From Actinotalea lenta (GTDB lineage: Bacteria; Actinomycetota; Actinomycetes; Actinomycetales; Cellulomonadaceae), in NCBI RefSeq assembly GCF_030586465.1, contig NZ_JAUQYP010000001.1, positions 310,001 through 374,000 on the forward strand: a stretch of DNA of 64,000 nucleotides. The letters run 5' to 3'. Below the pieces are notes generated by a model, which saw only the letters and a program-made list of their open reading frames with translations, made no database searches and was not told the origin of the DNA. Numbering within the stretch: the stretch's first letter is position 1; each line of letters starts with the position of its first letter. A program made the translations under genes and the position numbers. Positions 6,940-46,771 of this stretch are shown here, piece by piece.

Positions 6940-7698
6940 ATGGGGCTGGTGGCAGGCAAGGTCGCGCTCGTCACGGGCGGCGCCGCTGGGATCGGGCGGG
7001 CCTCCGCCGTGACGTTCGCGCGGGAGGGCGCCCGTGTGGCCGTGGTCGACGACGACGCGGCCGGGGGTGAGAAGACCGTGGCGATGATCGAGGAGGCGGG
7101 CGGCACCGCCGTCTTCATCGAGTGCGACATCGCCGACGCCGACGGTGTCGAGTGCGCGATCGCGAAGAGCGTCGAAGCGTTCGGTCGCCTCGACTGCGCC
7201 CACAACAACGCGGGCGTCGAGGGCCCGATGGCTCTGACGGCCGAGTACGCGGAGTCGGAGTGGGACCGCCTCATGGGCGTCAACGTCAAGGGCACCTGGC
7301 TGTGCATGAGGCACGAGATCCCGCGCATGCTGTTCCGCGGGGGTGGCGCGATCGTCAACACCGCGTCCTTCGCGGGAGTGGTGGGTGTCGAGGGGATGAC
7401 CGCCTACAGCGCCTCGAAGTTCGGGGTCGTCGGGATCACCAAGGTCGCTGCCCTCGAGTACGCGTCGATGGGCATCCGGGTCAACGCGGTGTGCCCGGGC
7501 CCCATCCGGACCGCGATGATCGACCGACTCCGTGAGACGAACCCGCAGGCGATGGCCGACCTGCTCGCGAGCGCACCGATGGGCCGCCTCGGCCGCCCGG
7601 AGGAGATCGCCGAGGCCGCCGTGTGGCTCTGCTCGGACCGGGCCTCGTTCGTCAACGGGCACAGCATGGTCGTCGACGGCGCCTTCACCGCCCGGTAG
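6940..7698 (+). CDS. Short-chain dehydrogenase/reductase (classical SDR)
   Basis: The product is 252 aa; AAGGAG lies before ATG 6940. Classical SDR features are all present: TGGAAGIG nucleotide-binding motif (residues 12-19), NNAG, catalytic Ser143, and Tyr156-x3-Lys160 in YSASK, then the NAVCPGPIRT segment and a typical C-terminal VNGHSMVVDG. It would oxidise or reduce a hydroxyl/keto group with NAD(P); the Asp at the end of the second strand (VVDDD) favours NAD. The substrate is unknown. It looks monocistronic, ending at a strong hairpin. Confidence 0.88.
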   Translation: MGLVAGKVALVTGGAAGIGRASAVTFAREGARVAVVDDDAAGGEKTVAMIEEAGGTAVFIECDIADADGVECAIAKSVEAFGRLDCAHNNAGVEGPMALTAEYAESEWDRLMGVNVKGTWLCMRHEIPRMLFRGGGAIVNTASFAGVVGVEGMTAYSASKFGVVGITKVAALEYASMGIRVNAVCPGPIRTAMIDRLRETNPQAMADLLASAPMGRLGRPEEIAEAAVWLCSDRASFVNGHSMVVDGAFTAR

Positions 7699-7728
7699 GA
7701 CGCTCCACGCCAGCGAGCGCGGTCCGCT

Positions 7729-7759
7729 GACGCCTGCGCGGGGCCCCTGCGCAGGCGTC
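7729..7759. terminator. Bidirectional stem-loop between convergent genes
   Basis: Perfect 11-bp arms GACGCCTGCGC / GCGCAGGCGTC surround a 9-base loop, placed between the stop of the SDR gene and the stop of the convergent YCII gene. There is no U-tract, as is usual for high-GC actinobacterial terminators. Confidence 0.65.
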
Positions 7760-7768
7760 GGGCCGGGG

Positions 7769-8122
7769 TCAGACCACCGGCCCGTCGATGAACTCGCGCA
7801 CCTCGACCGGGAGCGTCGTCGCTCGGGCGAGCCTGCGACCCCACTCGGTGGCCTCGGCCCGGTCCGCGGCGGTGATGATCGTCAACCCGCCGACGTGCTC
7901 CTTCGACTCGACGTACGGACCGTCGGTCACCGCCGCGCCTGCGCGGCGCGGATCGGCCACGGCGGCCGCGCTCGGGTCGTGCAGGCCCCCGGAGAACACC
8001 CACGCACCCGCGGCGATCATCTCCGCGCGCACGACGTCGACGGCTCGCATGATCCCCGCGAGGCGGTCAGCCGGGGGTGGGTCACCGATCGGCTGGTAGA
8101 TGCTGAGCAGGTAGTGCGCCAT
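7769..8122 (-). CDS. YCII/DGPF-domain protein
   Basis: The product is 117 aa starting MAHYLLSIYQP; AAGGAG sits 6 bases before ATG 8122, so longer upstream reading is rejected. The sequence VTDGPYVESKEHVGGLTII is the DGPF signature of the YCII-related family (PF03795), small dimeric alpha/beta proteins often co-encoded with ECF sigma factors in actinobacteria. No sigma factor gene is adjacent here. The function is not established. Confidence 0.85.
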   Translation of the reverse strand: MAHYLLSIYQPIGDPPPADRLAGIMRAVDVVRAEMIAAGAWVFSGGLHDPSAAAVADPRRAGAAVTDGPYVESKEHVGGLTIITAADRAEATEWGRRLARATTLPVEVREFIDGPVV

Positions 8123-8211
8123 GCGCCGCTCCTTCCAGATGCGCTCCGGGAGAGCCCCGGACGTCACACCTCTCCGACGATCGTCGGCGGCCGCGTTCGA
8201 CACCCAGGACC

Positions 8212-8580
8212 CTAGAACGGGAACAGCTCGTCGCGGGACCGCGCCACCGGTCGATCACCACGCAGCTCCCGACCCAGGGCACGGGCACCGAACAGCAGAT
8301 GGAAGCCCAGCACGAGGGTGCCGGCGATGGCGCCGTAGCCGAGCCAGCCACCCCACCACGTCACGGTCCCGACGACGCCCCACACCGCCACGCCCAGCGT
8401 CGCGGCGGCGGCGCACGCCAGCGTGACGATCACGGCACGGCGACGCTGAGGCGTTCCGGGCTCCCGCGAGACGGCACGGCGAAGCAGCGCCTCGTAGATC
8501 GCCGCCGGGATCGCCGCGACCAGGAACGACACGGCGAACTGGAAGATCGGTAGCTTGACTGCCTCAGCGAAGGCCCCCAT
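8212..8580 (-). CDS. Small membrane protein of unknown function
   Basis: The product is 122 aa with three predicted membrane helices: FQFAVSFLVAAIPAAIYEAL, AVIVTLACAAAATLGVAVWGVVG and LGYGAIAGTLVLGFHLLFG. Arginine-rich loops suggest a cytoplasmic tail ending RDELFPF. The start is uncertain (ATG 8580 or 8610) and no strong ribosome site is visible. It lies upstream of the YCII gene on the same strand. I do not recognise a family. Confidence 0.6.
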   Translation of the reverse strand: MGAFAEAVKLPIFQFAVSFLVAAIPAAIYEALLRRAVSREPGTPQRRRAVIVTLACAAAATLGVAVWGVVGTVTWWGGWLGYGAIAGTLVLGFHLLFGARALGRELRGDRPVARSRDELFPF

Positions 8581-8690
8581 CACCACATCATGCGCGAACG
8601 CGCTGCGCACGTCTCCCGGACGGCGGACATCACCCGACGGCGCCTCACGGCGCGCTACGGTCGATCACGTACTCGTCGAAGGAGAAGGAC

Positions 8691-9365
8691 ATGCCCACCA
8701 TCGCGATCGTCGGAGCCGGACCCGGTCTGGGGGCCGCCGTCGCGCGCCGGTTCGGCGCTGAGGGCTTCTCGGTCGCGCTCCTCTCACGCGACCAGGCCAA
8801 GCTCGACGCCCTCGCCGCGGAGCTCGGTGCCGGCGGCGTGACGGCCAGGGGCTACGCCGCCGACGTCCGCGACCCCGCCACCCTCGAGGACGCGCTTGCG
8901 CGGGCCGCAGCCGAGCTGGGCCCGATCTCCGTGCTCCAGTACAGCCCGCTGCCCTCGCGCGCCTACCTCGAGCCGGTGCTCGACCTGACGCCCGACCTCG
9001 CGCTCGAGGCCCTCCGGTTCTCCGCGCTCGGCCTCATCCACGCCGCGCGCGCGGTGCTCCCGGCCATGCGCACGGCCGGCGAGGGGTCGATCGTGCTCAT
9101 CAACGGCGGCACCTCGGTCAAGGCGCGGCCGGGCTTCGCGGGCACCTCGGTCGCGTTCCCCGCGGAGAGCGCCTACGGGGAGATGCTGCACGACGCGCTC
9201 GCGGACGAGGGCGTCCGGGTCGTCCAGCTCGTGATCCCCGGGGCGATCCCCAAGCTCCGGCTCGAGCACGGCATCGACGACGTGGCCGAGCGCATCTGGG
9301 AGCTGCACCGCTCCGACGGCCCCTTCCGGTCGATGCTCATCCCGCTCGAGGAGGGCCGGGAGTAG
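8691..9365 (+). CDS. SDR-like Rossmann protein, catalytic Tyr-x3-Lys not conserved
   Basis: The product is 224 aa; GAAGGAG lies before ATG 8691. IAIVGAGPGLGAAVARRFG is an SDR-type dinucleotide-binding motif. Where classical SDRs have YxxxK, this protein has ESAYGEMLHDAL, with no Lys four residues after the Tyr, and the NNAG motif is replaced by QYSPLPSR. It therefore looks like an atypical or non-catalytic SDR. It appears to be a single-gene unit. Confidence 0.82.
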   Translation: MPTIAIVGAGPGLGAAVARRFGAEGFSVALLSRDQAKLDALAAELGAGGVTARGYAADVRDPATLEDALARAAAELGPISVLQYSPLPSRAYLEPVLDLTPDLALEALRFSALGLIHAARAVLPAMRTAGEGSIVLINGGTSVKARPGFAGTSVAFPAESAYGEMLHDALADEGVRVVQLVIPGAIPKLRLEHGIDDVAERIWELHRSDGPFRSMLIPLEEGRE

Positions 9366-9484
9366 CCAGACCCGCCACCCGGCGGAGGTGGAGTCGGGCC
9401 CGTCCACGACGATGTGACAGAACCCCCTTGACAGGGGTCGTGCAGCGGCGGACCGTGTGACCTACGTGGTTTGCGCAGTCTTCC

Positions 9485-9504
9485 GACCGGTACACGTGCC
9501 GGTC
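9485..9504. promoter_or_regulatory. 20-bp imperfect palindrome upstream of the neprosin cassette
   Basis: GACCGG and CCGGTC arms flank TACACGTG in the 240-bp gap 9366-9605; 16 of 20 positions pair. It lies about 100 bp before the first gene of the cassette. A TTGACA sequence occurs at 9429-9434 but no good -10 follows at 17 bp. This is an operator candidate only. Confidence 0.35.
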
Positions 9505-9605
9505 CACTCACCTCACACGCGCTAGGCCGGATGCCGGGCCAGCGACGTCTCCTGCGCAGGAAGGCGCAGGACCGGTGCCGCCCGCGTCACCGATGGAGGC
9601 CGGTC

Positions 9606-10856
9606 ATGGCTGAACCGCTGGGCATTCTTCCGCTCCGATCCTTTCGTGACACCGTCGACAAGGAGCAGTTCACCGCAGCGCGTCGCGACCCGCGCGCGCG
9701 CGTGGTGAGCAAGCAGTCGTTCGACGAGATGAAGTCCCACCTCCTCGAGCTGTACGGGGATCTCGACGCCGAGCACAGCTTCGAGGACCCCGCCGGCGCT
9801 GAGGTCGACTGCGTGCCGATCGAGTCCCAGCCGTCGCTGCGGGGTACCGACGGAACGATCGCCGTCGCGCCCGACCTGGGCCCCGTGCTGCGGGGCGAAC
9901 CCCCGCAGGTCCCCGCGCAGCAGGCGCCGCGTGCGCCCGTGAACTTCCACCGCCGGGACCGGCACGGCAACGAGGTGTACGTCCCGTCCGGGACGATCCC
10001 GATCCGCCGGGTCCGGCTGGCCGACATGGCTCGGTTCGCGACGCTGTCGGACTTCATGCGCAAGAGCGCCGGGCCTTCACCGGTACCACCGAGTGCGCCC
10101 GACCCGGACACCGGCAAGAACCATCGCTACGCCTACACCCACCAGACCGTGGACAACATCGGCGGTCACAGCTCGCTCGCGGTGTACGCCCCGACCATCA
10201 CCTCCGACCAGGTCTTCTCCCTGGCCCAGCACTGGTACTCCGGTGGCACCGGCAACGCCCACCAGACGCTCGAGGTGGGCTGGCAGGTGTATCCGGCCAA
10301 GTACGGTCATGCCAACCCCGTGCTGTTCCTCTACTGGACCGCGGACAACTATCAGTCCACCGGTGCGTACAACCTCGACTCCGCGGGGTTCGTGCAGACC
10401 AACAGCGCCTGGACGATCGGCGGTGCTCTGAGCCCCGTCAGCACCAAGGGCGGCCAGCAGTTCGAGATGGAGCACGCCGCCTACCTGTTCGGCGGGAACT
10501 GGTGGGTCTACGCGGGCGGGACGTCGTCCTCGGACGCGCTCGGCTACTACCCGACCTCGCTGTACTCCGGCGGCCAGATGGCCTCCAAAGCCACGGAGAT
10601 CACCTACGGCGGCGAGACCGTCACGTCCGCCGTCGGCTGGCCGGCGATGGGCAGTGGGGAGTTCGCTTCCGCGGGGTGGCAGCAGGCCGCCTACCAACGC
10701 AACCTCTACTACTACCCGACCGGAGGCGGGGCGCAGTGGGCGGGGCTCACCGCCGAGCAGCCCTCCCCCGCCTGCTACACGCTCCAGCTCGGTGCCGCCG
10801 CCGCACCGTGGGGCGTCTACTTCTTCTACGGCGGGTCCGGCGGAGGCAACTGCTGA
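9606..10856 (+). CDS. Neprosin-domain (DUF239-like) protein without signal peptide
   Basis: The product is 416 aa; GGAGG lies 6 bases before ATG 9606. Residues ~1-170 are a charged N-terminal region (MAEPLGILPLRSFRDTVDKEQF), rich in Pro near its end. Residues ~180-410 match the neprosin domain (PF03080): HRYAYTHQTVDNIGGHSSLAVY, HQTLEVGWQVYP, EMEHAAYLFGGNWWVY and MGSGEFASAGWQQAAYQRNLYYY. Plant neprosins are glutamic peptidases using two Glu; Glu223 (LEVGW) and Glu352 (SGEF) are the natural candidates. Plant enzymes and most relatives are secreted, yet no signal peptide is visible here. It is the first gene of a three-gene unit; the next start is 18 bases on. Confidence 0.85.
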   Translation: MAEPLGILPLRSFRDTVDKEQFTAARRDPRARVVSKQSFDEMKSHLLELYGDLDAEHSFEDPAGAEVDCVPIESQPSLRGTDGTIAVAPDLGPVLRGEPPQVPAQQAPRAPVNFHRRDRHGNEVYVPSGTIPIRRVRLADMARFATLSDFMRKSAGPSPVPPSAPDPDTGKNHRYAYTHQTVDNIGGHSSLAVYAPTITSDQVFSLAQHWYSGGTGNAHQTLEVGWQVYPAKYGHANPVLFLYWTADNYQSTGAYNLDSAGFVQTNSAWTIGGALSPVSTKGGQQFEMEHAAYLFGGNWWVYAGGTSSSDALGYYPTSLYSGGQMASKATEITYGGETVTSAVGWPAMGSGEFASAGWQQAAYQRNLYYYPTGGGAQWAGLTAEQPSPACYTLQLGAAAAPWGVYFFYGGSGGGNC

Positions 10857-10874
10857 GGCGAGGGAGGTCCCCCC

Positions 10875-13800
10875 ATGGCGACAACACCCGGCCAGCCCGT
10901 CCCGGCTCCGATGGCCGCCGCACCGGAACGCGCGTCGGCCTCGACGCACACCGCGGCGTTCGGCACGACGGACGCCACGACCGGCACGGGCTCGGTCCCG
11001 GATCGTGTCCGGTCGGCGATCGGGGCACGCGCCCGGATCCCGCTGACGGTGGACCCGTTGGGGCTCCGTCCCGAGCTGCGGGCGCAGTTCTTCGACACGC
11101 GTGCGAAGGCCGTGGCCAACCTGTTCACCGGGATGGCCCAGGTCCACGCCGACCTGGGCACACTGGTCGCCGACCTCGCGGTGCCGACCGCGCCCGCCAA
11201 CCTCATCGCGGTGCTGGTCCAGCCGGACGGCAGCCCGGTGGGACCGGTGCAGATCCAGTTCGACCCCGCGACCCTGCAGCACAAGGCGCCCGTGGTCAGC
11301 GTCGTCAACGAGCGCGACGGGGGCTTCCGGCTCCCGCTGCCCGCCGGCATGCGGCTGCCGACGACGGCGAGCCTCCACCTCGTGGTGCACGGCGGCTCGG
11401 GCGGCAGCGTCACCGTCGATGTCCCGGCCGCCGAGATCGCCGCCAACGGCGTCGCGGGGACCATCCGGCTCGGCCAGTTCGTCACCCCGCTGCCGGTGAG
11501 CATCCTCGCCTCGCTCCAGCAGCTGGTCGCCCCGGCGCCCACGTCCGAGCCGCCGCCGAAGCCGACCACCACGCCCGCGCTTCCGGTCGTGTCGATCGGC
11601 GACGGGGACTCCTGCCTGCTGAGCTACGGCGCGAACGCCTCGGTGGACCGGTTCCGCTACGGCGTCTTCTTCCGGCTGGTCGAACCACGCGCCTCGATCG
11701 TCAGCCAGGCCCGTCCCGTGCCGACCGCCGGGGGGTTCACCTTCCTGCCGTTCTACGCGACCGAGCTCGTCCGGGCGGACCAGCCTGCCGTGGCACCGGC
11801 ACAGCCGGAGGCTCCTGCCCGACCCGGCGCCCTCCCGCAGGTGCCACCCGCCGACCCGGACCCGGGGAGCGTCACGTACGTCGACCGCGTGCCGGTCGAG
11901 CAGCCGATCAGCGTCGACGGGTTCCGCGACCAGGTGATGGGGCTCACGGAGGACGGCACGTACACGGCCGACGAGCTCCGTCCGATGGCGGGCACCCTCG
12001 GCATCGGGTACGTGCTTCACCTGTCCCAGCAGTGGACCCTCCAGGGGCTCGCGCTGGGCGACCTGGTCTACTCCCTGCCGCTCGCCCCCGGTGAGCAGCA
12101 GCAGGTCGCCGTCTTCGAGCGCACCGACACCGCTCGGGTGACCGAGTCGGAGTTCTTCACGCAGGAGGAGGCCCAGCACCAGCGCGCCCTGTCCGACACC
12201 TCGACGCACGCCACGTTCGAGTCGGCCTTCGAGGAGGCTATCCACGGCTCGAGCCACTTCGACACGCACTCCAGCTCCAAGAGCTGGGGCGCCAGCATCA
12301 TCATCGTGAGCGGTGGCGGTGGTAGCTCCTCGGCGAGCGGTTCGTCCTCGCAGACGCTCGAAGGGCACCGGCAGACCACCCAGGAGGCCGCTCAGCAGAC
12401 GCACTCCGCCGCGGAGAACCAGGCCTCGGCACGTCGCCGGGCCGCGCGCACCGGGATGCGGGTCGCGACGGCGACCGAGTCCCAGGAGCTGACCACGCGG
12501 GTCATCACCAACCACAACCACACCCGCGCGCTGACGATGCAGTACTGGGAGGTGCAGCGGCTCTACGACGTCACGACCGGCATCGACGGCCTGACCCTGG
12601 CAGTCCTGGTCCCGCTCCAGGTGGTGCGCTTCATGCCGCCGGGACAGCCTGTGCACCTGACCTCGCCGTCGCAGGTGGACAGCCGGGCCAAGATCCTGCA
12701 GCGCTACGAGGCGATCCTCAAGCACGCGGACGTGCTCGGGCAGGCCCTGCCACGCCGCTACCAGCACGGCCTGCAGATGCTCACCGGCTTCGCAGCGGAC
12801 CCGCTCGCCGCGGTGAGCAGCGCCGGAGCCGCCGCCCAGGACATCATCCAGGTCACGGTCACCGGCTCCTTCCTGGACACCGAGGACGTGTGGCTGCGGG
12901 TGGTCACCGACCGCGGCACCCGCATCGGGCCGGTCAAGCTGACCAACCCGGCGCCCCCTCCACCGGCGGAGACCTTCGAGAGCAAGGACCAGCTCGTCGA
13001 CTGGCTCATGAACGAGCGCCGCAACAGCGCCGTGGCGCTCAGCGGCGCGGTCGCCCTGCCGCCGTCGATGAACCGGTCCAACGTCGTCGGCTTCGAGCTC
13101 TCGCGCGCCTTCGCGAGCCTGTCCTACCCGCTGCTCACCCAGGAGGTCGCGACGCTCAAGTCGCTCGAGGGGCTGTTCGGCGGCACCAGCTGGATCGACC
13201 AGGCGCTCGAGTCCAAGCTGTCCGCGGCGTCGGCGCGACGGCAGACGGTTGTCCTCACCCCTGCGGACCTGGAGCGCGCGGTCGGCGGACCGCACCTCAC
13301 CTGGTTCTCCGCCGCGGTCGAGGAGCTCGCGGACGGCAGCCCCACCGGCGCGGCCAACGAGGAGTACGCCAACCAGCCGCTGTCCGGGGTCGAGCTCCCG
13401 CAGCAGACCTACCCGGTCCCGGCACGCCAGCTCGCGCCCGTGCTGCGCTACGACGAGGTGCTCGAGATCGAGAAGATGGCCGGCCACGTCGCGCGCAACA
13501 CGCTGACGTACTCGCACGCGGTGTGGGCCTCGATGGACGACCTCGAGCGCGCCGTGCTGCTGGAGGCGTACACCATCGGGGTGCCACCGGACGGCGTCGA
13601 GGACGCCACCCAGATGGTGCCGCTGCTGAACTGCGTGCAGAACCGCGTGCTCGGGTTCTTCGGGAACTCGATGATCCTGCCGTTCATCATCCCGCAGTCG
13701 CTGTCCGGGCGGATGGTCGGCGGCCAGGCGGTCGACCCGATCGCGCTGCACGACGCCCTCCTCGCCTACCAGAAGGCGACGTTCAGCCCGCCGCACTCGA

Positions 13801-14534
13801 CGATCGCGCTGCCGACCCGCGGCGTGCTCGCCGAGGCCGTGCTGGGCACCTGCCCGTCCGCGGAGAAGATCGACCTGCGCCGGTTCTGGAACTGGCAGGA
13901 CTCCCCCGCGGACACGGCACCGACGATCTCGCCCGTCACGCTGCCGACCGGTGCGGAGAACCAGGCGGGCGGCCTCACCGCGCCGTCGAACCTGACCAAC
14001 CTGCCATCGTTGATCAACAACGTGCTGACCGCGCCGACACCGGACACGTCGCTGCTGTCCGCCCTGAGCCAGGCGGCGGCCGGCCAGAAGGACTTCGCCA
14101 GCTCGCTCACCGGCGCCTCGGAGCTGGCCGGGCTCGTCACGAACGCCCAGAACACCGCCAACCTGGCCCGCGCCGACGCGCTGAAGACCACCAAGGAGCT
14201 CAACGCGCAGGCGATGGCGACCGTCGGCAACATCCTCGGCGGCATCTACGGCGGCAACCCCACTGCCGGGTCGAGCGCCGCCGCCGCAGTCTCCGGCAAG
14301 GGTGACGGCGGACCGGCCCCGAGCCCGAGCACCTCGAAGGGCACCGCCAAGCCGCCGGACGCCAGCGGCGGTGGCAAGGTCACCGCCACGGGCAGCCCGG
14401 GCAGCAACGGCGGCACGCCGAGCCCGAGCGGAGGGACACCGAGCCCGAGCGGAGGCACGCCGTCCGGTGGGCCGCCAGGACCGCCGACGGGCAACCCGAG
14501 CCCGAGCCCGACCCAGCCGAGCAGGGAGGGATGA
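10875..14534 (+). CDS. Large protein of unknown function in the neprosin cassette
   Basis: The product is 1219 aa; GGGAGG precedes ATG 10875. No signal peptide or membrane helix is evident. Residues ~60-200 look beta-rich. Residues ~330-620 contain LPLAPGEQQQVAVFER (near 400), a polar coiled region with Ser/Gly-rich insert (~475-500), then TTRVITNHNHTRALTMQYWEVQRLYDV (~540-570), a pattern I associate with large uncharacterised bacterial proteins that carry an 'LAPGE...NHNH.ALT..YWEV' block. A helical region follows with a MNERRNSAV segment and TGVPP-like motifs. The last ~130 residues are Pro/Gly/Ser low complexity with three GGTPSPS-like repeats. The stop lies 3 bases before the next ATG, implying coupled translation. 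Confidence 0.85.
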   Translation: MATTPGQPVPAPMAAAPERASASTHTAAFGTTDATTGTGSVPDRVRSAIGARARIPLTVDPLGLRPELRAQFFDTRAKAVANLFTGMAQVHADLGTLVADLAVPTAPANLIAVLVQPDGSPVGPVQIQFDPATLQHKAPVVSVVNERDGGFRLPLPAGMRLPTTASLHLVVHGGSGGSVTVDVPAAEIAANGVAGTIRLGQFVTPLPVSILASLQQLVAPAPTSEPPPKPTTTPALPVVSIGDGDSCLLSYGANASVDRFRYGVFFRLVEPRASIVSQARPVPTAGGFTFLPFYATELVRADQPAVAPAQPEAPARPGALPQVPPADPDPGSVTYVDRVPVEQPISVDGFRDQVMGLTEDGTYTADELRPMAGTLGIGYVLHLSQQWTLQGLALGDLVYSLPLAPGEQQQVAVFERTDTARVTESEFFTQEEAQHQRALSDTSTHATFESAFEEAIHGSSHFDTHSSSKSWGASIIIVSGGGGSSSASGSSSQTLEGHRQTTQEAAQQTHSAAENQASARRRAARTGMRVATATESQELTTRVITNHNHTRALTMQYWEVQRLYDVTTGIDGLTLAVLVPLQVVRFMPPGQPVHLTSPSQVDSRAKILQRYEAILKHADVLGQALPRRYQHGLQMLTGFAADPLAAVSSAGAAAQDIIQVTVTGSFLDTEDVWLRVVTDRGTRIGPVKLTNPAPPPPAETFESKDQLVDWLMNERRNSAVALSGAVALPPSMNRSNVVGFELSRAFASLSYPLLTQEVATLKSLEGLFGGTSWIDQALESKLSAASARRQTVVLTPADLERAVGGPHLTWFSAAVEELADGSPTGAANEEYANQPLSGVELPQQTYPVPARQLAPVLRYDEVLEIEKMAGHVARNTLTYSHAVWASMDDLERAVLLEAYTIGVPPDGVEDATQMVPLLNCVQNRVLGFFGNSMILPFIIPQSLSGRMVGGQAVDPIALHDALLAYQKATFSPPHSTIALPTRGVLAEAVLGTCPSAEKIDLRRFWNWQDSPADTAPTISPVTLPTGAENQAGGLTAPSNLTNLPSLINNVLTAPTPDTSLLSALSQAAAGQKDFASSLTGASELAGLVTNAQNTANLARADALKTTKELNAQAMATVGNILGGIYGGNPTAGSSAAAAVSGKGDGGPAPSPSTSKGTAKPPDASGGGKVTATGSPGSNGGTPSPSGGTPSPSGGTPSGGPPGPPTGNPSPSPTQPSREG

Positions 14535-14537
14535 GCG

Positions 14538-16124
14538 ATGCCGTCGAACCCCAGGACCGGCGCCGCCGCACCCATCGTCGAGCTGCCCGGTGACCGGGCC
14601 GCCGAGCCGACGGGAGCCGCACTGGCCAACCCGCCCGCGAACGCGGCGCCCCCGACCGGGCCCACGCCGGCCGCCGAGCCCGCTCCGGCACCGACGGGCG
14701 GTCCGTCCGGACCGTTGCCGGACACCCCCGGCGGCTCCGGGACCGGACCGGGCGGCACCGGTGGCGGCACCGGTGGCGGCACCGGTGGCGGCACCGGCAC
14801 CGGACCGGGCGGAGGGCCGGCGGGCACCGGTGGCGGCACCGGCACCGGACCGGGCGGAGGGCCGGGCGGCACCGGTGGCGGCACCGGCGGCACCGGCGGG
14901 CCCCCGGACGCCGGGGGCGCCGGCGCGGGCCCCGGCGACACCACCGGCGGCGTCCCGGTGACCGGCGGCGGCCTCGACGAGACCCAGGTCGGCGAGCAGC
15001 TCGCGAGCAGCCTGCTGGACCTGGTGACCAATGCCACGTCAGGCGACGCGGTGGAGGCGCAGCGCATCATCCTGCGCCGGATCGCGCTGCAGGGCGACAT
15101 CGTGCCCTCCCGGGTCCCGGCCCCGCTGAACATCACCCAGATCGGCGGGTACCTCAACCTCCTGGAGAGCCTGGGTCAGACCGACATGGAGCTGCAGACC
15201 CTCGCCGGGATCCTCGGGGTCGCCGGGACCGTACGGCCCCAGGGCCTGCTCGGGGGAGCACCCGCGCTCACGCTGGTGCCGGTCGCCAACGACCGTCCAC
15301 CCGGTCCTGCCCAGCCGTCCCTGCCGGTGGTGGTGGCGTTCCGCAGCGACCTGGCACCCGCGGTGCGCGCGGCGTTGTCCGGCCTGCACGACGTCGGCGC
15401 GGTCCTGCCGATGCTGGGCAACCCGACGGGCCTGCCGGTCGCGGGCCTGGCCGCCGCCGTGCCGGACCCGCTGCCGTACCTCGGGCGGGTGCTCACCGTG
15501 GCCTCCGCGTACGCGACGCAGAACGCTGCGACCGATCCGCTGCTGCTGGCGCGGCCGTCCGGGAGCACGGACCCGTTCGAGCTGACGGCCCGCGCCGCGG
15601 CACCGACCGCCCCGGCCGACCTGGACGTCCTGGTGTGCACCTCGTCGTCGTGCGTCCCGCTCGCGCAGACCGGGGTGCGCGCCGTGCCGGTGGGGCCCGC
15701 GCTGGCGTCGGCAGGTTTCTACCCCGCCGACCCACCACCGCAGCCGGCGAGCAGTGCCGACACCGCCTGGGCCCGCTACACCAACACCACGGGCCTGGTC
15801 GCCGGGACGCGACTCGGCGACGAGCTGGCGCTGCTGTACACGTGGGACACGATCGCCGGGAGCGTCTACAGCGACCACTTGGACTGGGTGTGGACGGGCA
15901 CGACCTTCGACGTCGCCGGCTCCCCGACGACCGGCACCGCAGGGACCGGCACCGCGGGGACCGCCGGCACGGGGGGAGCCGGTGGGCCCGCACCCGCACC
16001 CGGTCCGGGGCCCGCACCCGCGCCCGGTCCGGGCCCAGCACCAGCACCCGCACCCGGTCCGGGGCCCGCTCCCGCGCCCGGTCCGGGCCCAGCGCCAGCA
16101 CCACCGGCCGGCCCCAGCCGGTAG
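14538..16124 (+). CDS. Gly- and Pro-repeat protein of unknown function in the neprosin cassette
   Basis: The product is 528 aa. Residues ~1-145 are disordered Pro/Ala then GGTGGGT repeats. Residues ~146-225 are helical (LASSLLDLVTNATSGDAVEAQRII, ITQIGGYLNLLESLGQTDME). Residues ~230-455 are globular, with a CTSSSC pair of cysteines and a Trp-rich end (DHLDWVWTGTTFDV). The tail is PAPAPGPGP repeats. No signal peptide, no membrane helix, no recognised domain. Low-complexity ends shared with the preceding gene suggest one assembly or shared localisation, which is inference. Confidence 0.8.
   Translation: MPSNPRTGAAAPIVELPGDRAAEPTGAALANPPANAAPPTGPTPAAEPAPAPTGGPSGPLPDTPGGSGTGPGGTGGGTGGGTGGGTGTGPGGGPAGTGGGTGTGPGGGPGGTGGGTGGTGGPPDAGGAGAGPGDTTGGVPVTGGGLDETQVGEQLASSLLDLVTNATSGDAVEAQRIILRRIALQGDIVPSRVPAPLNITQIGGYLNLLESLGQTDMELQTLAGILGVAGTVRPQGLLGGAPALTLVPVANDRPPGPAQPSLPVVVAFRSDLAPAVRAALSGLHDVGAVLPMLGNPTGLPVAGLAAAVPDPLPYLGRVLTVASAYATQNAATDPLLLARPSGSTDPFELTARAAAPTAPADLDVLVCTSSSCVPLAQTGVRAVPVGPALASAGFYPADPPPQPASSADTAWARYTNTTGLVAGTRLGDELALLYTWDTIAGSVYSDHLDWVWTGTTFDVAGSPTTGTAGTGTAGTAGTGGAGGPAPAPGPGPAPAPGPGPAPAPAPGPGPAPAPGPGPAPAPPAGPSR
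14751..14900 (+). repeat. In-frame GGTGGCGGCACC-type tandem repeats
   Basis: 12-bp units encoding GGTG are repeated with 6-bp variants inside the 528-aa gene. All are multiples of three and keep the frame, so length can vary by slippage without breaking the protein. Confidence 0.85.
15988..16112 (+). repeat. In-frame 54-bp Pro/Ala/Gly-coding repeats
   Basis: A 54-bp unit (18 codons, PGPGPAPAPGPGPAPAPA type) occurs twice, with a partial copy before it, at the 3' end of the 528-aa gene. The two copies differ at only a few third-codon positions. Confidence 0.8.
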
Positions 16125-16151: not shown

Positions 16152-16547
16152 TCACGCCTCGGCGAGCTCGGCCAGGGCACGGCCGATGCGTGCGCCGGCC
16201 TCGTCGGCGTAGTCGGTCAGGCCGTCGACGTCGGTCACCGTCGAGATCAGGGCCGGGTCGAACACGTGCACCTGGCAGCTGTCCGGGCCGGTCGCCCGCA
16301 CCACCACGCTGCACGGCAGCAGCACACCGATGCGCGGGTCCGCGGTCACGGCGCCCTCGGCGAGCGCCGGGTTGCACGCCCCGAGGATCACGTAGGGCCC
16401 GATCTCGACCTGGCGCTTGGCGCGCAGCGTCGCCTCCATGTCGATCTCGGTGAGGATGCCGAACCCCTGGGACGCCAGTGCCTCCCGGGTGCGGGTCACC
16501 GCGTCCTCGAAGGGAAGGGCTACGTCCACGGTGCGCTCGAACTGCAT
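16152..16547 (-). CDS. DUF302 family protein
   Basis: The product is 131 aa; GAGGAG lies 7 bases before ATG 16547. It fits PF03625 over its full length: FEDAVTRTREALASQGFGILTEIDMEATLRAK, VILGACNPALAEGAV, GVLLPCSVVVR and a final helical segment. DUF302 proteins are small swapped-dimer folds often linked to redox or metal stress; the biochemical role is unknown. It is convergent with the cassette and divergent from the HAD gene. Confidence 0.9.
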   Translation of the reverse strand: MQFERTVDVALPFEDAVTRTREALASQGFGILTEIDMEATLRAKRQVEIGPYVILGACNPALAEGAVTADPRIGVLLPCSVVVRATGPDSCQVHVFDPALISTVTDVDGLTDYADEAGARIGRALAELAEA

Positions 16548-16685
16548 CTCGGGCTCCTCGCTGGTCGACAGGGACCCGGCACGGCACGACTCGCCGGCCG
16601 GCTCCTTCGTGTCTACCACCGCCGCGCGGACCCTGCCGCGGGTTTCACGCGACCTCCGCGATCGGGGCCGCGCTACCGTCGACGG

Positions 16686-17225
16686 ATGGTCGGCCCCCCC
16701 TGGTGGTTCCTGGACGTCGACGGGGTGCTCAACGCCTTCCCCCCGCCTCCGTCCGGCGCGACCACGTGGTCCTACCGGTCGCTCCGGGTCGGGGCGCAGG
16801 GTGGGGTGTTCACCGTGACCGTCGCGGACGAGCTGCTCGCCGCGCTGCGCGACGTGCACACCACCGGCCAGGCGGAGGTGGTCTGGTGCACCACCTGGGG
16901 CTCGGACGCCCGGGACAGCCTCGCCCCGCTGCTCGACCTGCCCGACTGGCCCGTCGCGCCACGCCCGGACGACATCCGCTGCGCGCCGCTGCCGGGCTGG
17001 TCGGCCGCGCCGTGGTGGAAGCTCGAGGCCGTCTCGCGCTGGCTCGACCGGGAGCCCCGCCCCTATGTGTTCACCGATGACGACCTGGTCCCCGAGGTCG
17101 TCGAGGAGCTACGAGCCCGCCATCCCGGCCTGCCGGCGTGCCTGCTCCGGCCGAGCACCACCCCGGGGCTCGGGCCGACCGAGCTGCGTACCGTGCACGA
17201 GTTCCTCACCCGGCCGGCCGGCTGA
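16686..17225 (+). CDS. HAD-superfamily-like protein
   Basis: The product is 179 aa. It begins WWFLDVDGVLNAF, matching HAD motif I (DxDGxLN), then VVWCTTWGSDA as motif II (Thr) and YVFTDDDLVPE near the expected motif IV acidic pair. The cap is minimal. This subgroup in actinobacteria is annotated only as a HAD-like secreted or phosphatase-like protein; the substrate is unknown. Start ATG 16686 directly precedes the domain; the ribosome site is weak. Confidence 0.8.
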   Translation: MVGPPWWFLDVDGVLNAFPPPPSGATTWSYRSLRVGAQGGVFTVTVADELLAALRDVHTTGQAEVVWCTTWGSDARDSLAPLLDLPDWPVAPRPDDIRCAPLPGWSAAPWWKLEAVSRWLDREPRPYVFTDDDLVPEVVEELRARHPGLPACLLRPSTTPGLGPTELRTVHEFLTRPAG

Positions 17226-25594: not shown

Positions 25595-25667
25595 GCCCCC
25601 ATCGTCTAGCGGCCTAGGACCCCGCCCTTTCACGGCGGTAGCACGGGTTCGAATCCCGTTGGGGGTA
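25595..25667 (+). tRNA. tRNA-Glu (anticodon TTC)
   Basis: 73 nt. Acceptor GCCCCCA pairs with TGGGGGT (first pair G-U, normal for this tRNA), the anticodon stem CCGCC/GGCGG encloses CTTTCAC, and the T arm is GGTTCGAATCC. CCA is not encoded. Confidence 0.95.
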
Positions 25668-25695
25668 CGAACCACCTGGACCTTGTTCCATACAA

Positions 25696-25769
25696 GGCCC
25701 CGTGGCGCAGTTGGTTAGCGCGCCGCCCTGTCACGGCGGAGGTCGCGGGTTCAAGTCCCGTCGGGGTCG
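25696..25769 (+). tRNA. tRNA-Asp (anticodon GTC)
   Basis: 74 nt. Acceptor GGCCCCG/CGGGGTC with discriminator G, anticodon loop CTGTCAC in CCGCC/GGCGG, and T arm GGGTTCAAGTCCC. CCA is not encoded. Confidence 0.95.
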
Positions 25770-25803
25770 CTCGTCGGTCCGGTCACGAGCCGGACCGCGG
25801 CTC

Positions 25804-25876
25804 GGCCACTTAGCTCAGTTGGTAGAGCGTTCGACTGAAAATCGAAAGGTCGGCAGTTCGACCCTGCCAGTGGCCA
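25804..25876 (+). tRNA. tRNA-Phe (anticodon GAA)
   Basis: 73 nt. Acceptor GGCCACT/AGTGGCC with discriminator A, anticodon loop CTGAAAA in TTCGA/TCGAA, T arm with GTTCGA. It is the last tRNA of the cluster; the three are 28 and 34 nt apart. Confidence 0.95.
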
Positions 25877-25881
25877 CGTCC

Positions 25882-42232: not shown

Positions 42233-44296
42233 TCAGCGACGCTGAGGCTTGGGCTCGGGGCGCGGAGCGGAGCCGCTCGCGCGCTCGGCTCGGGCGTGCG
42301 CGCGGGCCTCGTCCTGGCGCGCCGCCTCAGCACCGCTCGCGATCGCGGCACGCACGTGCTCGGGGCCGTACCCGAAGGCGTCCACCAGGTCCTGGGCGTG
42401 CGGGCGCAGCCGCTCGAGCAGCCGGTCCACGTAGGGCGCGACCACCCGCGCTCGCCCGGCCGACAGCCGCCCGTGGATGAGGTACCACGCCAGGTTCTGC
42501 TCGATCAGGGTGAGGCCGAAGAGGTCCCGCAGCCACGTCAGCACGCGCCGCGTACCGGCGTCCTCGACCTTCGCCAGGCCCGCCGTGAACGCCTCCCACT
42601 GCAGCAGGTCGGCGTGCGCCCGGGCGGCGTCGACCATCTGGTGCTGGTGCGCGTTGAGCAGCTCCGCCGCCTCGGAGCGGGACGCCTTGCCCGCCGGGCG
42701 GAGCGCACCGGCGAGCTCGGTGACCATGGTCTCGACGCGGTCGGTGAGCAGCTCGCGCTGCGCCTCGGTGGAGCGCAGCTGGCCCACCGAGCGCCGCGCG
42801 TCGCCCCCGTCGGCGAGGGTCTGCACGACACGGGTCAGCGGGGTCCGGTGCAGCGCGACGTCGGCGGCACGCTCGGCGACGAGCCGCGCCATGGTCCCGG
42901 CGTCGACGTTCGCGAGCTCCTTGGCGACGTCCGCGAGCAGCCGCTTGGCCACCAGCTGGAGCAGGACGGTGTTGTCGCCCTCGAAGGTGACGTACACGTC
43001 CAGGTCCGCGCGCAGCGAGGTGAGCCGGTTCTCGGTGAGGTAGCCCGCGCCGCCGCACGCCTCGCGGGCAGCCTGCAGCGTGTCCAGCGCGTGCCAGGTC
43101 GACGCGGACTTCAGGGCTGCCGCGATCGTCTCCAGGTCCTGGCGGTCCTCGTCGGTGTCGGCGCGTCCGGAGAACACGTCGTCGAACGTGGCCAGCAGCC
43201 GCTCGTGCGCGAACGCCTGGGCGTAGGTCTGGGCCAGCCTCGGCAGCAGGCGGCGCTGGTGCTCCTGACGGTCCAGCAGCACGACCTCGTCGGTGTCCGA
43301 GGCCGCGGTGAACTGGCGACGCTGGTTGGCGTACGTGACCGCGATGATCAGTGCGAGCTTGCTCGCGTTGACCGCGGCGCCGTCCAGCGACACCCGGCCC
43401 TGGACGAGGGTCGACAGCATCGTGAAGAAGCGCCTGCCCGGGCTCGCGATCGGCGAGGAGTAGCTTCCGTCGGCGGCGACGTCGCCGTACCTGTTCAGCA
43501 GGTCCCGACGGGGCACCCGGACATGGTCGAAGTGCAGCCGGCCGTTGTCGATGCCGTTGAGCCCACCCTTGAGCCCGTCGTCGTCACCGCCGACGCCCGG
43601 GAGGAACCCCCCGGTCCGCGGGTCGCGGATCGGCACGTAGAACGCGTGCACGCCGTGGTTGACCGGCCCGCCGTCCGCCGGTGTGACGAGCTGGGCGAAC
43701 ACCACGGCGGCGTGCCCGTGCAGGGCAGCGTTTCCCAGGTAGTCCTTCCACGCCGCCCGGAACGGGGTGTGGAGGACGAACTCCTCGGTCGCGGGGTCGT
43801 AGGTCGCGGTGGTCGCGATGCTCGCGACGTCCGAGCCGTGCCCGGTCTCGGTCATCGCGAACGCTCCCGGCACCTCCAGCGACATCGCCCCCGGCAGCAG
43901 CCGGTGGTGGTGGTCCTGCGTGCCCAGGTGCAGCAGCGCGGAGGCGAACAGCCCCCACTGCACCCCGGACTTGATCTGCAGCGAGGGGTCCGCGGCGACC
44001 AGCTCCTCGAACCGCGCGAGCGAACCCCCGTGGTCGTCGGCACCCCCGAGCTCGGTCGGGAACGCGCGCAGCACCTCTCCCTCGGCGACCAGCAGCCTGA
44101 GCTGGTCCAGTACCCGTTCGCGGTGCTCGGTGAGCGAGAGGCCATCCACCTTGTGGAACCGCGGATCGGTGATCAGGTCCCGGGTCGCACGGCGCAGGTC
44201 ACCCCATCGTCCGAGCACGACCCGCTCGAGCGCGGCGACGTCCACGGCCGCCTCGGGCGCGGTGGCCTGCGCGCGGTCTGTCACGGGTGCGGTCAT
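42233..44296 (-). CDS. Acyl-CoA dehydrogenase/oxidase family protein
   Basis: The product is 687 aa; GAGGAG is 6 bases before ATG 44296, which overlaps the TetR stop (ATGA). It is a long ACAD with the acyl-CoA oxidase layout: ELGGADDHGGSLARFEEL, GAFAMTETGHGSDVASIATTATYD (FAD/substrate loop), NGIDNGRLHFDHVRVPRRDLLNRYGDVA, ALDTLQAAREACGGAGYLTENRLTSLRADLDVYVTFEGDNTVLLQLVAK and a C-terminal helical domain. Likely FAD-dependent first step of fatty acid beta-oxidation. Coupled to the TetR gene. Confidence 0.9.
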   Translation of the reverse strand: MTAPVTDRAQATAPEAAVDVAALERVVLGRWGDLRRATRDLITDPRFHKVDGLSLTEHRERVLDQLRLLVAEGEVLRAFPTELGGADDHGGSLARFEELVAADPSLQIKSGVQWGLFASALLHLGTQDHHHRLLPGAMSLEVPGAFAMTETGHGSDVASIATTATYDPATEEFVLHTPFRAAWKDYLGNAALHGHAAVVFAQLVTPADGGPVNHGVHAFYVPIRDPRTGGFLPGVGGDDDGLKGGLNGIDNGRLHFDHVRVPRRDLLNRYGDVAADGSYSSPIASPGRRFFTMLSTLVQGRVSLDGAAVNASKLALIIAVTYANQRRQFTAASDTDEVVLLDRQEHQRRLLPRLAQTYAQAFAHERLLATFDDVFSGRADTDEDRQDLETIAAALKSASTWHALDTLQAAREACGGAGYLTENRLTSLRADLDVYVTFEGDNTVLLQLVAKRLLADVAKELANVDAGTMARLVAERAADVALHRTPLTRVVQTLADGGDARRSVGQLRSTEAQRELLTDRVETMVTELAGALRPAGKASRSEAAELLNAHQHQMVDAARAHADLLQWEAFTAGLAKVEDAGTRRVLTWLRDLFGLTLIEQNLAWYLIHGRLSAGRARVVAPYVDRLLERLRPHAQDLVDAFGYGPEHVRAAIASGAEAARQDEARAHARAERASGSAPRPEPKPQRR

Positions 44297-45033
44297 GACG
44301 GCTCCTCGTCCTCGAGAGCCGGGGTGCCCGGCGACATCCCCGGCAGGTTTCGTGCGAGCGCGCTGACCGGTCCGGTCCACAGCCAGGCGGTCACGCGCTC
44401 GGCGAGCTCCTCGCGGCTCGGCGCGTCCTGTTCGCTGCGGTGCCCGAGCCACCACTCGCCCGCACCGCGGACGAAGCCCACGGCTCCGCTGCCCCACAGG
44501 TCCGCCATGGCGGCGGGCTCGTCGCCGTCGGCGCCCGCCACCAGCCGGGCGAACGGTTGGGCGACGAGCGTCGCCACCGCGTCCATGAAGTGTCCCAGCG
44601 GGGCCGACGCGCTCTCGCCGCCCGGCCGGGTGACGAACCAGTAGACGTTCGGGGATGCCTCGATCATCGCCAGGTACGCGTCGATCATGGCGCGCAGCGC
44701 TCCGCGGGGCGTCGAGGCCTCCCGGCTCGCGACGTCGAGCGCCGCGTGGATGTCGGTGACCACGGCCTGCCCGACGGCGGCCTGCAGGCCGGGCTTGTCG
44801 ATGAAGTAGCGGTACACGATCGACTTGGAGGTCCCGGCCGCGGCAGCGATCTCCTCCATGGACACGTCGGGCCCCAGTCGGTGGACCGCCCGTCGTGCCG
44901 CGCGGGCGAGCTCGGAGCGGCGGGCGGACCGGTGCTCGGCCCACCGGGTCGAGCGCCCGTCCGAACCGATTCGAGGCGCGTCGGACCCCCGCTCCCGCGG
45001 GGCTCCCTCGGTCGTCCGCTCTGATCGACTCAC
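44293..45033 (-). CDS. TetR-family transcription regulator
   Basis: The product is 246 aa from GTG 45033 (no strong ribosome site; the mRNA may be near-leaderless). HTH: RAVHRLGPDVSMEEIAAAAGTSKSIVYRYFIDKPGLQAAVGQAV, then a helical ligand-binding domain. It is coupled to an acyl-CoA dehydrogenase gene, so an acyl-CoA-responsive repressor of beta-oxidation is the likely role. An operator-like sequence abuts its start and recurs before the thiolase operon. Confidence 0.9.
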   Translation of the reverse strand: MSRSERTTEGAPRERGSDAPRIGSDGRSTRWAEHRSARRSELARAARRAVHRLGPDVSMEEIAAAAGTSKSIVYRYFIDKPGLQAAVGQAVVTDIHAALDVASREASTPRGALRAMIDAYLAMIEASPNVYWFVTRPGGESASAPLGHFMDAVATLVAQPFARLVAGADGDEPAAMADLWGSGAVGFVRGAGEWWLGHRSEQDAPSREELAERVTAWLWTGPVSALARNLPGMSPGTPALEDEEPS

Positions 45034-45034
45034 A

Positions 45035-45063
45035 GTACCGACGGTATCAAGTACCCGTAGTTT
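45035..45063. promoter_or_regulatory. Candidate TetR operator at the tetR start
   Basis: TACCGACGGTA (45036-45046) is a perfect 11-bp palindrome, followed by GGTATCAAGTACC with GGTA/TACC half-sites. The first 21 bases match 48830-48850 at 18 positions. It sits 2 bases before the GTG of the regulator, where bound protein would block transcription or translation. Confidence 0.6.
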
Positions 45064-45116
45064 CGGGCACACCCTCCCGGCCGTCGCCGTGATGGGAGCG
45101 GTCCCATCGCCGTGGC

Positions 45117-45130
45117 TGCAATCGCTTGCA
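45117..45130. promoter_or_regulatory. Candidate LacI-type operator for the sugar ABC operon
   Basis: TGCAATCGCTTGCA has TGCAA/TTGCA arms around a central CG, the form of LacI-family operators such as AglR/CebR/MalR. It lies 123 bp before the binding-protein start. A second inverted repeat, GATGGGA/TCCCATC (45091-45108), lies just upstream. No LacI regulator gene with an HTH is in the window. Confidence 0.55.
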
Positions 45131-45252
45131 ATCGTTACCGAAGCGTGTCCTGACCGCCTTGCCCAGCCCGAGTGGGCGGGCAATGATCGGGAATGTTCAC
45201 CCCCGTGCGGACTCGTCCGCGTCGGGACAACGAAGTCAGACGAGGAGAGAAC

Positions 45253-46638
45253 ATGAGGTCAAACGGTCGTCGGCGCGTGATGCTCGCCGGCTCCGCCGTG
45301 GCAGCGGCAGGCTTGCTGCTCACGGCCTGTTCGAGCAACGGCTCGAGCAGCTCGTCCAGCTCGGACACCGGCTCCAGCAGCCCCAGTGCCTCGCTCAGCG
45401 CAGAGTGCCAGCCCTACGCCAACTACATGGGCCATGACGGCACGACGGTGACGATGTTCGGCTCCATCCTCAGCCCGGAGTCCGACTCGCTCGAGAAGTC
45501 CTGGGCAGACTTCTCCAAGTGCACCGGCATCACGATCCAGTACGAGGGCACGAACGAGTTCGAGTCCCAGCTGCCGGTGCGCGTCCAGGGCGGCCAGGCA
45601 CCCGACCTCGCGATCATCCCGCAGCCGGGTCTGCTGGCCCGCCTCGCGGCGAGCGCCAAGCCCGCCCCGCAGGCCGTGTCGGACAACGTGGACAAGTACT
45701 GGGCCGCTGGCTGGAAGGGCTACGCCACGGTCGACGGCAAGTTCTACGGCGCCCCGATGAGCGCGAACATGAAGTCGTTCGTCTGGTACTCGCCCAAGAT
45801 GTTCTCGGACAAGGGCTACCAGGTTCCCAGCACGTGGGACGACATGATGAAGCTCTCCGACACCATCGCCAACAACGGTGACGGCATCAAGCCGTGGTGC
45901 GGTGGCATCGGGTCCGGTACGGCGACCGGTTGGCCGGCCACCGACTGGCTCGAGGAGATCGTCATGCGCAACTCCGGGCCGGACGTCTACGACCAGTGGG
46001 TCAACCACGACGTGAAGTTCGACTCCCCGCAGATCAAGGACGCCATGGGCATCCTCGAGAAGTGGATGAAGAACCCGAACTACGTCAACGGTGGCTACGG
46101 TGACGTCTCGTCGATCGCGACCACGACGTTCCAGGACGCCGGTCTGCCGATCCTCAAGGGCCAGTGCTACATGCTGCAGCAGGCGTCGTTCTACGCCGCC
46201 CAGTGGCCCGACGGCACCAAGGTCGGCCCGGACGGCGACGTGTGGGCCTTCTACCTGCCTCAGATGAACGACAAGTACGGCGTCCCGGTCGAGGGTGGTG
46301 GCGAGTTCCTCACCGCGTTCGCCGACCGTCCCGAGGTCCAGGCCGTGCAGACCTACCTGTCGACCCCTGAGTGGGCGACCAGCCGGGTCAAGGTGGCGAG
46401 CGGCTGGGTGTCCGCGAACAACGGCGTTCCCGCCGACGCGTACACGAGCCCGATCGACCAGCTCTCCGCGAAGTACCTGACGGACCCGAAGGCGACCTTC
46501 CGGTTCGACGCCTCCGACCTGATGCCGGCTGCTGTCGGTGCGGGCGAGGAGTGGAGCCAGTTCACCTCCTGGTTCGCCGGCACCACGTCGACCGACGCGA
46601 TGCTGAAGGCGATCGACGCCGCCTGGCCGACCAGCTGA
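45253..46638 (+). CDS. Sugar ABC transporter substrate-binding lipoprotein (alpha-glucoside type)
   Basis: The product is 461 aa; GAGGAG precedes ATG 45253. The signal peptide ends in lipobox LLLTAC|SS, then a Ser-rich linker. MBP-like fold: VTMFGSILSPESDSLEKSWADFSKCTGITIQYEGTNEFESQLPVRVQGGQAPDLAIIPQPG matches the AglE group for alpha-glucosides. It is the first gene of the unit, and is followed by a strong hairpin before the permeases, a common way to make more binding protein than permease. Confidence 0.9.
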   Translation: MRSNGRRRVMLAGSAVAAAGLLLTACSSNGSSSSSSSDTGSSSPSASLSAECQPYANYMGHDGTTVTMFGSILSPESDSLEKSWADFSKCTGITIQYEGTNEFESQLPVRVQGGQAPDLAIIPQPGLLARLAASAKPAPQAVSDNVDKYWAAGWKGYATVDGKFYGAPMSANMKSFVWYSPKMFSDKGYQVPSTWDDMMKLSDTIANNGDGIKPWCGGIGSGTATGWPATDWLEEIVMRNSGPDVYDQWVNHDVKFDSPQIKDAMGILEKWMKNPNYVNGGYGDVSSIATTTFQDAGLPILKGQCYMLQQASFYAAQWPDGTKVGPDGDVWAFYLPQMNDKYGVPVEGGGEFLTAFADRPEVQAVQTYLSTPEWATSRVKVASGWVSANNGVPADAYTSPIDQLSAKYLTDPKATFRFDASDLMPAAVGAGEEWSQFTSWFAGTTSTDAMLKAIDAAWPTS

Positions 46639-46656
46639 TCGTGCCCACGGCCTAGC

Positions 46657-46700
46657 GCACAATCGCCCGGGTCCGACTAGTCGGGCCCGGGCGATTGTGC
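46657..46700 (+). terminator. 44-nt near-perfect palindrome between binding protein and permeases
   Basis: Outer arms GCACAATCGCCCGGG / CCCGGGCGATTGTGC (15 bp perfect) and inner CCGACTAGTCGG join through one T-G pair, giving a stem over 20 bp with almost no loop. It lies 18 bases after the stop. Likely an attenuator or RNA-stabilising hairpin that raises the dose of the binding protein over the permeases. Confidence 0.75.
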
Positions 46701-46771
46701 TGTGCTGACCCTGAGACATCCCCGGCCGACGCTGCAGCGTTGCAGCTCGGCGCTTCCCGAAGGAGGGACGC

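Follow-up and report, generated by a model that had tools for sequence, protein, structure and literature searches.

What role can a neprosin-type glutamic peptidase, from a family whose members are usually secreted by means of a signal peptide (although this trait is not defining), play when it is encoded without such a leader and directly in front of two large partner proteins? This question is raised by a locus of Actinotalea lenta (Actinomycetota; contig NZ_JAUQYP010000001.1 of assembly GCF_030586465.1, positions 310,001 to 374,000 of the forward strand), a stretch of 64,000 nucleotides that we analyzed as a whole and call the window. Three co-directional genes on its + strand encode a leaderless neprosin-family peptidase of 416 amino acids (aa) (P1, 9606..10856), a 1219-aa large partner belonging to an unnamed family (P2, 10875..14534), and a 528-aa partner without a match to a curated family (P3, 14538..16124). 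The gaps between them, 18 bases for P1-P2 and 3 bases for P2-P3, as well as coordinates and lengths, are exactly those given in an initial annotation made from the letters alone. Their third-position guanine-plus-cytosine (G+C) contents of 0.91, 0.95, and 0.89 are what genuine genes would show in DNA of 72-75% G+C. Since P2-P3 adjacency and the full or partial cassette recur in relatives, the association goes beyond chance. We tentatively propose that the cassette may specify a three-part leaderless proteolytic effector complex, in which P2 and P3 would be the carrier or scaffold and P1 the enzyme part, a reading that we find plausible and yet place somewhat below an even chance. It draws on what the sequences indicate about gene order, the neprosin membership and active site of P1, its pro-domain-like region, the varied enzymes on the P2 side, a P2 clade, and proline-rich tails. 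No description of a neprosin-P2-P3 system was met in the literature searched, which leaves out most subscription journals.

Beyond the window, P2 and P3 recur as a pair. A scan of genome contigs for the P2 family yielded 113 loci; the best 80 of the 113 were kept (L002-L081). Of these, 49 (L002-L050) make up a P3-type group, and the other 31 (L051-L081), with 32 P2 genes, a lone-P2 group. In all 43 testable loci of the P3-type group P3 comes after P2; the other six are contigs that break off within P2 or where it ends (L006, L008, L014, L016, L045) or 455 bases beyond it (L038). The two genes overlap or lie within 89 bases of each other in 40 of the 43 cases, and one or two genes intervene in the remaining three (L042, L046, L049); P3 was not found in any lone-P2 locus. 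P2 and P3 are thus a conserved pair, far from the outcome that the initial annotation had named as speaking against a cassette, namely that homologues would almost never be adjacent in other genomes. The upstream genes inspected in other P3-type loci have no family in common, and several of them look like spurious open reading frames (ORFs).

Judged by profile and alignment matches, P1 is a neprosin-type glutamic peptidase with both catalytic glutamates. The neprosin domain assigned in the initial annotation is supported at this level by PF03080 (residues 202-410, 10209..10835; expectation value (E) 1.1e-52, 179 bits for a cut-off of 22), and a phmmer search of solved structures retrieved neprosin itself (PDB 7zu8, E 6.7e-39). 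Of the catalytic pair that had been suggested, Glu223 (10272..10274, aligned to neprosin E188) stands, but Glu352 has to be replaced by Glu337 (10614..10616, aligned to E297): the column of Glu352 reads E/Q/A/A/A/L/L across seven aligned neprosins, whereas E223 and E337 are both kept in seven of seven aligned bacterial neprosins. The alignment also places H173, Y175, Q208, W210, and Y249 of P1 at the positions of H134, Y136, Q173, W175, and Y214. Residues 59-177 (9780..10136) resemble the activation peptide PF14365 at 32.7 bits, under the cut-off of 39.2 that the P1 homologue of L002 passes with 39.7 bits. Within this pro-domain-like region, Pro162-Ser163 (10089..10094) is the predicted self-activation cut, as it aligns with P128-S129 in 7zu8; Pro-Ser is kept at this site in all five P2-linked neprosins (two of them near-identical) and is missing from an orphan neprosin of genome G622. 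According to the available text on neprosin of Nepenthes (PDB 7zu8, 7zva; PMC9343461), this enzyme is a prolyl endopeptidase with the catalytic pair E188/E297 that activates itself at acid pH by maturation at P128-S129. P1 thus shares with it the catalytic domain, both glutamates, a pro-domain-like region, and the Pro-Ser site, but has three cysteines versus the seven reported there, an activation-peptide match that begins only at residue 59, no signal peptide that we could see, and a genetic tie to P2 and P3. The absence of signal peptides from all three proteins, stated in the initial annotation, agrees with the lack of any hydrophobic N-terminal segment in P1, P2, or P3 (best 19-residue Kyte-Doolittle means of 0.99, 1.82, and 1.24, respectively). 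The P1 homologues in L002, L083, L084, and L100 likewise show no N-terminal signal peptide by eye, and a distant neprosin in genome G263 starts signal-peptide-like. A bacterial glutamic peptidase of another family, G1, is reported to have been characterized (PMC3009609).

The full P1-P2-P3 cassette is also found in L002, a Nitrospira metagenome-assembled genome (MAG), and on two Novosphingobium plasmids (L083 7654-13671, NC_015579.1; L084 4654-10683, NZ_CP009295.1), whose annotation of the cassettes names neprosin alone. One of the two plasmids is typed as conjugative, and the cassette of Novosphingobium PP1Y adjoins an IS21 element and partition/replication genes. P1 and P2 occur together on a short Pseudomonadota MAG contig as well (L006), which ends in or at P2. 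The P1-P2 gap is 18 bases on both plasmids, as in the window, ranges from 18 to 24 bases in the four loci with both genes complete, and is 44 bases in L006. In a midpoint-rooted tree of 17 chosen rows, among them L028, which lacks the upstream DNA in which a neprosin might lie, the five neprosin-linked P2 proteins form one clade (support 100/96, all of 200 bootstrap trees; an equally low value in none of 500 shuffles). Such a clade would be expected if neprosin had joined P2-P3 once and the genes had then stayed together across phyla; because the P1 tree including the orphan G622 copy is poorly resolved (30/66), the trees do not show co-descent of P1 with P2. The distribution of the cassette is patchy: PF03080 was detected in one of 59 genomes, namely in the own one and not in the 58 related ones, of which 18 belong to the genus, and across the class in three of 394 genomes, the own among them, and the P1 protein query matched one of 198 genomes of the phylum, again the own.

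Neprosin-linked P2 and P3 proteins have a further trait in common, as both carry proline-rich segments. The C-terminal tail of P2 in the window (14328..14531) holds 23.5% proline over 68 aa, and the Gly/Pro-rich N-terminal linker of P3 (14538..14963) holds 19.0% over 142 aa. Across the four complete neprosin-linked pairs (those of the two plasmids near-identical), P2 tails contain 13.9-23.5% and P3 linkers 19.0-24.7% proline, versus 0-5.3% in five P2 tails and 4.5-9.1% in the four measurable P3 linkers of the nearest relatives in which no neprosin was seen (L003, L004, L005, L040, and L028, the last without upstream DNA). Base composition does not explain these tails, since L002 shows them at 53% G+C. 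We regard the proline-rich linkers of P2 and P3 as possible candidate substrates of the neprosin. They also bear on the main rival to our proposal, in which P1 would serve P2 and P3 solely as their maturation protease and be no payload, trimming the proline-rich tails for assembly or release of the carrier without any outside role. The proline contrast with the nearest relatives and the prolyl endopeptidase activity of neprosin (as available in PMC9343461) speak for such a role. However, the contrast depends on one clade, most P2 and P3 relatives do without an adjacent neprosin, and amidase or NlpC/P60-like genes, which by family would not cut proline tails, occupy comparable places elsewhere. 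On balance we consider an exclusive maturation role somewhat unlikely, and payload and maturation roles may both hold.

What kind of protein is P2? Titles of the records containing P2 loci name Actinomycetota, Pseudomonadota, Nitrospirota, Acidobacteriota, Gemmatimonadota, Bacteroidota, Firmicutes, and an archaeal MAG, and a further relative is encoded on a Haladaptatus plasmid (L086). The family core measures ~1000 aa (~960 aa in lone P2 proteins). The P2 of the window has no match in Pfam, PHROGs, or PADLOC and one NCBIfam match far below cut-off (14.8 of 100 bits), and fold recognition by sequence against the PDB, with P2 alone and with P2 and P3 profiles, returned nothing meaningful. An alignment of 63 sequences, taken from 82 P2 ORFs, confirmed the two motifs noticed in the initial annotation: LAPGE (residues 403-407, 12081..12095), in which A, P, G, and E are nearly invariant across all 63 sequences, the P2 of the window included, and the NHNH..YWEV block (residues 546-560, 12510..12554; NHNH from 546, YWEV from 557). 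The most conserved block, AEAVLG...RFWNWQDSP, lies near the end of the core (13830..13907) and holds 14 of the 16 invariant columns. An N-terminal DUF4332 is present in two of five P2 relatives scanned over their full length (L034, L036). Within the own phylum, a 661-aa P2 query matches four of 396 genomes, own genome counted; one of these four matches, in genome G104 (E 5.5e-4, 31 residues, internal stops), is probably due to chance. Five clusters of neighboring genes (3, 6, 8, 9, and 11) were dropped, as they consisted of ORFs overlapping P2 in other frames.

To describe P3 as a repeat protein, as the initial annotation did, is too simple: its Gly/Pro-rich linkers flank a conserved region of ~300 aa. 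This region comprises a conserved domain of ~75 aa (..NITQIGGYLNLL.., 14994..15221), retained in the shortest relatives, and a C-terminal conserved part reaching to residue ~457 (15222..15908); a Pro/Gly/Ala-rich tail follows (15921..16121). No match to the P3 of the window was found in curated libraries including Pfam, NCBIfam, PHROGs, and PADLOC models, and Pfam searches with 44 P3 members gave scattered matches to 12 families, each in one or two members (best E 5e-4).

As domain searches indicate, the P2 family is broad, and its enzyme partners vary from lineage to lineage. In L042, P2 is separated from P3 by an Amidase_2 gene (E 2.2e-7, over cut-off), and L046 has an NlpC/P60-like gene in this place (E 7e-4, under cut-off). 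The domain of the latter turns up again in L034, as a fusion to the C-terminus of P2 (E 1e-10), and a weak relative of it (E 2e-5) lies between P2 and P3 in L049. Fusions of P2 to DUF2272 occur in L070 (E 3.3e-7) and in the Haladaptatus plasmid protein L086 (E 1.1e-15). DUF2272 is grouped with NlpC/P60 and amidase enzymes, and some of its members are peptidoglycan amidase effectors, as far as the available text of PMC10318531 goes. The 31 C-termini of lone P2 proteins fall into 21 groups (those >80 aa, single-linkage BLAST, E 1e-4, at least 60 aligned), a count that could fall through remote kinship or rise, as one group of 10 is perhaps partly joined by linkers. In a Proteobacteria MAG (L068), two lone-P2 genes stand in tandem (7158-11153 and 11594-15337) with 99.7% identity over 960 aa and unrelated C-termini beyond this shared part, an apparent case of tip exchange in the unnamed family.

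Several further P2 proteins deserve description in their own right. The 2576-aa Muribaculaceae protein of L034 (974-8704) unites DUF4332, P2 core, and NlpC/P60-like tip in one chain, and in our reading also carries several immunoglobulin-like repeats. Four Paenibacillus lone P2 proteins (L065, L066, L071, L076) end in a common domain, which bears a GLCTAA/GLCTTA motif and to us looks papain-like; the L065 copy has no Pfam match. The C-termini of the lone P2 proteins L056 and L075 carry HELTH and HHELEH motifs, respectively, which suggests zinc metallopeptidase tips; for L056, Pfam gave only an M48 match below threshold (E 0.066), and for L075 it gave none.

A conserved core with unrelated C-termini, together with tandem copies that differ only there, makes the lone-P2 group resemble polymorphic toxins as these are portrayed in the available text of Zhang et al. 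(2012; PMC3482391). One may thus ask whether P2 delivers an enzyme into or onto neighboring bacterial cells, as part of an antibacterial system of this type, and the cell-wall enzyme domains among P2 partners would fit. Yet exchangeable C-termini are confined to the lone-P2 group, the P2 of the window ending in a linker, and P3-type loci can encode the enzyme separately. The P2 of the window has no known export or trafficking domain in Pfam, NCBIfam, PHROGs, or PADLOC. In our own reading, the convergent orientation of the next gene past P3 leaves no candidate for an immunity gene in the window, and none is consistent elsewhere: at most 13 of the 32 lone P2 genes have a co-directional ORF of at least 80 aa starting about -80 to +100 bases from them, a count from raw six-frame ORFs that shorter immunity genes would escape. 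Since an adjacent immunity gene separates polymorphic toxin systems from other toxins (PMC3482391, in its available text) and none is apparent here, we do not file the cassette under them, and we judge antibacterial delivery of this kind improbable. A similar comparison applies to Tse1-type peptidoglycan amidase effectors (DUF2272/NlpC-like; PMC10318531, available text), with which the P2 family shares related enzyme classes as tips or neighbors; unlike them, P2 has a core without a Pfam match, nor any of note in the PDB, and its own genome lacks a PF04984 sheath gene.

How, then, might the cassette work? In the proposed effector complex, P2 and P3 would form a conserved carrier or scaffold of two proteins, joined by different hydrolases from lineage to lineage, either as partners or as fusions. 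The enzyme part in this lineage would be P1, the leaderless zymogen of a neprosin-type prolyl endopeptidase. P1 would be latent at cytoplasmic pH; the complex would leave the producer by lysis or another route and then meet acid, where P1 would cut itself at Pro162-Ser163 and, once activated, cleave after proline in external proteins. It would probably also cleave the proline-rich tails of P2 and P3, freeing parts. Physical association, release, acid trigger, and targets are all steps that we infer. In a bolder form, which we consider unlikely, P2-P3 would be a self-contained mobile carrier of an undescribed kind, spread over many phyla and archaeal records, that brings exchangeable hydrolases (prolyl endopeptidase, peptidoglycan amidase, NlpC/P60-like, and others) to foreign cells and needs neither a signal peptide nor an immunity gene nor any known machine for injection. 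The neprosin lineage would then be triggered by the acid of the target compartment (e.g., a predator's food vacuole), where the zymogen would activate itself, cut the proline-rich tails of the carrier, and release active parts.

A number of observations weigh against the proposed effector complex. The initial annotation had treated the three genes as a unit, which is borne out by P2-P3 in the testable loci and by the clade of neprosin-linked P2 proteins, but neprosin is no constant member of the pair: it lies upstream in only two of the 49 P3-type loci (L002, L006), to which the two plasmids add; six others (L009, L019, L028, L034, L035, L046) have <1 kb of upstream DNA, too short to judge. 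Proline-rich P2 tails are also present where no neprosin was seen (L018, L021, L048, and L019, the last without upstream DNA), as are proline-rich P3 linkers (L048, and L031, whose linker overlaps P2 so that its start may be wrong). As the neprosin-linked P2 proteins are one clade, the proline contrast amounts to one event, kept in divergent members. Most P2 C-termini scanned with Pfam match nothing, most C-terminal groups are without an identified enzyme, and Pfam yielded nothing over cut-off for the gene of 540 aa in L046, for either of the genes inserted in L049, or for the large gene past P3 in L044. No export route was found either: in a search restricted to PF04984, which covered neither type VI secretion and other sheath families nor other secretion systems, the sheath gene was absent from the own genome, and of 32 chosen genomes that hold P2 relatives only 12 had it, leaving contractile delivery unsupported as a general explanation. 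Finally, G622, a 7-Mb genome of the same class, encodes a neprosin that is of the subtype of P1, likewise leaderless and 48% identical, but an orphan (L100 6081-7331), with no P1-P3 partner within the 16 kb covered and no genome-wide match to the 661-aa P2 query. This lone copy could mean that P1 is an unrelated neighbor that merely happens to sit beside the P2-P3 pair. We deem this very unlikely, as the link recurs with short gaps in the host of the window, in Nitrospirota, and in Pseudomonadota including two plasmids, and the P2 genes concerned group together.

The lack of leaders also bears on a peaceful use of the same parts, namely a feeding or scavenging complex in which P2 and P3 would keep digestive hydrolases on the surface of the cell or in the medium, with no antagonism involved. 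Neprosin is a digestive enzyme of pitcher plants, and some P2 ends suggest contact with wall or surface, namely OmpA-like ones, below the Pfam cut-off, in L010 and L022 and TIG-like ones, by our own reading, in others. Such a function seems quite unlikely to us, given that no signal peptide was seen on P1, P2, P3, or the P1 homologues, and that tandem copies with different tips are untypical of digestive enzymes.

Upstream of P1, on the same strand, lies a short-chain dehydrogenase gene (8691-9365, PF00106), and 27 bases past P3 begins the convergent ORF (16152-16859, start uncertain), which may encode a DUF302-like protein. In a genome of the same genus (G015), the dehydrogenase gene and the gene past P3 have homologues that enclose ~4.4 kb of other genes without a match to P1-P3, and the slot of the cassette is therefore variable and a clean insertion unproven; an exact empty site was not found, the counterpart interval in G015 being filled by these genes. 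A scan for promoters and terminators returned 0 and 0 sites, which is uninformative at this G+C. A phage origin was rejected, as P2 had no match at E 0.01 in 50,697 phage records; viral contigs, searched with a few short patterns each, held no relative of P1 or P2, and PHROGs gave a single match, to P1, at E 0.07. Anti-phage defense was likewise set aside, with no PADLOC match for P1, P2, P3, or the lone P2 of L065. Elsewhere in the window, G+C drops to 0.680 at 44001-48000 versus about 0.72-0.75 in the rest, and tRNA-Glu, tRNA-Asp, and tRNA-Phe form a cluster at 25595-25877. The own genome assembly measures 3.31 Mb.

What emerges is a family with a core of ~1000 aa, spread across many phyla without a core model in the libraries searched, that bears the hallmark of exchangeable enzyme tips, and beside it a neprosin subtype that has no visible signal peptide although its family is known for secreted enzymes. 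The neprosin cassette offers a handle on both, as it brings together a protease of known chemistry, its catalytic residues, and candidate substrates in one operon-like unit; because protease and candidate substrates are encoded together, simple cutting tests can separate the payload and maturation models.

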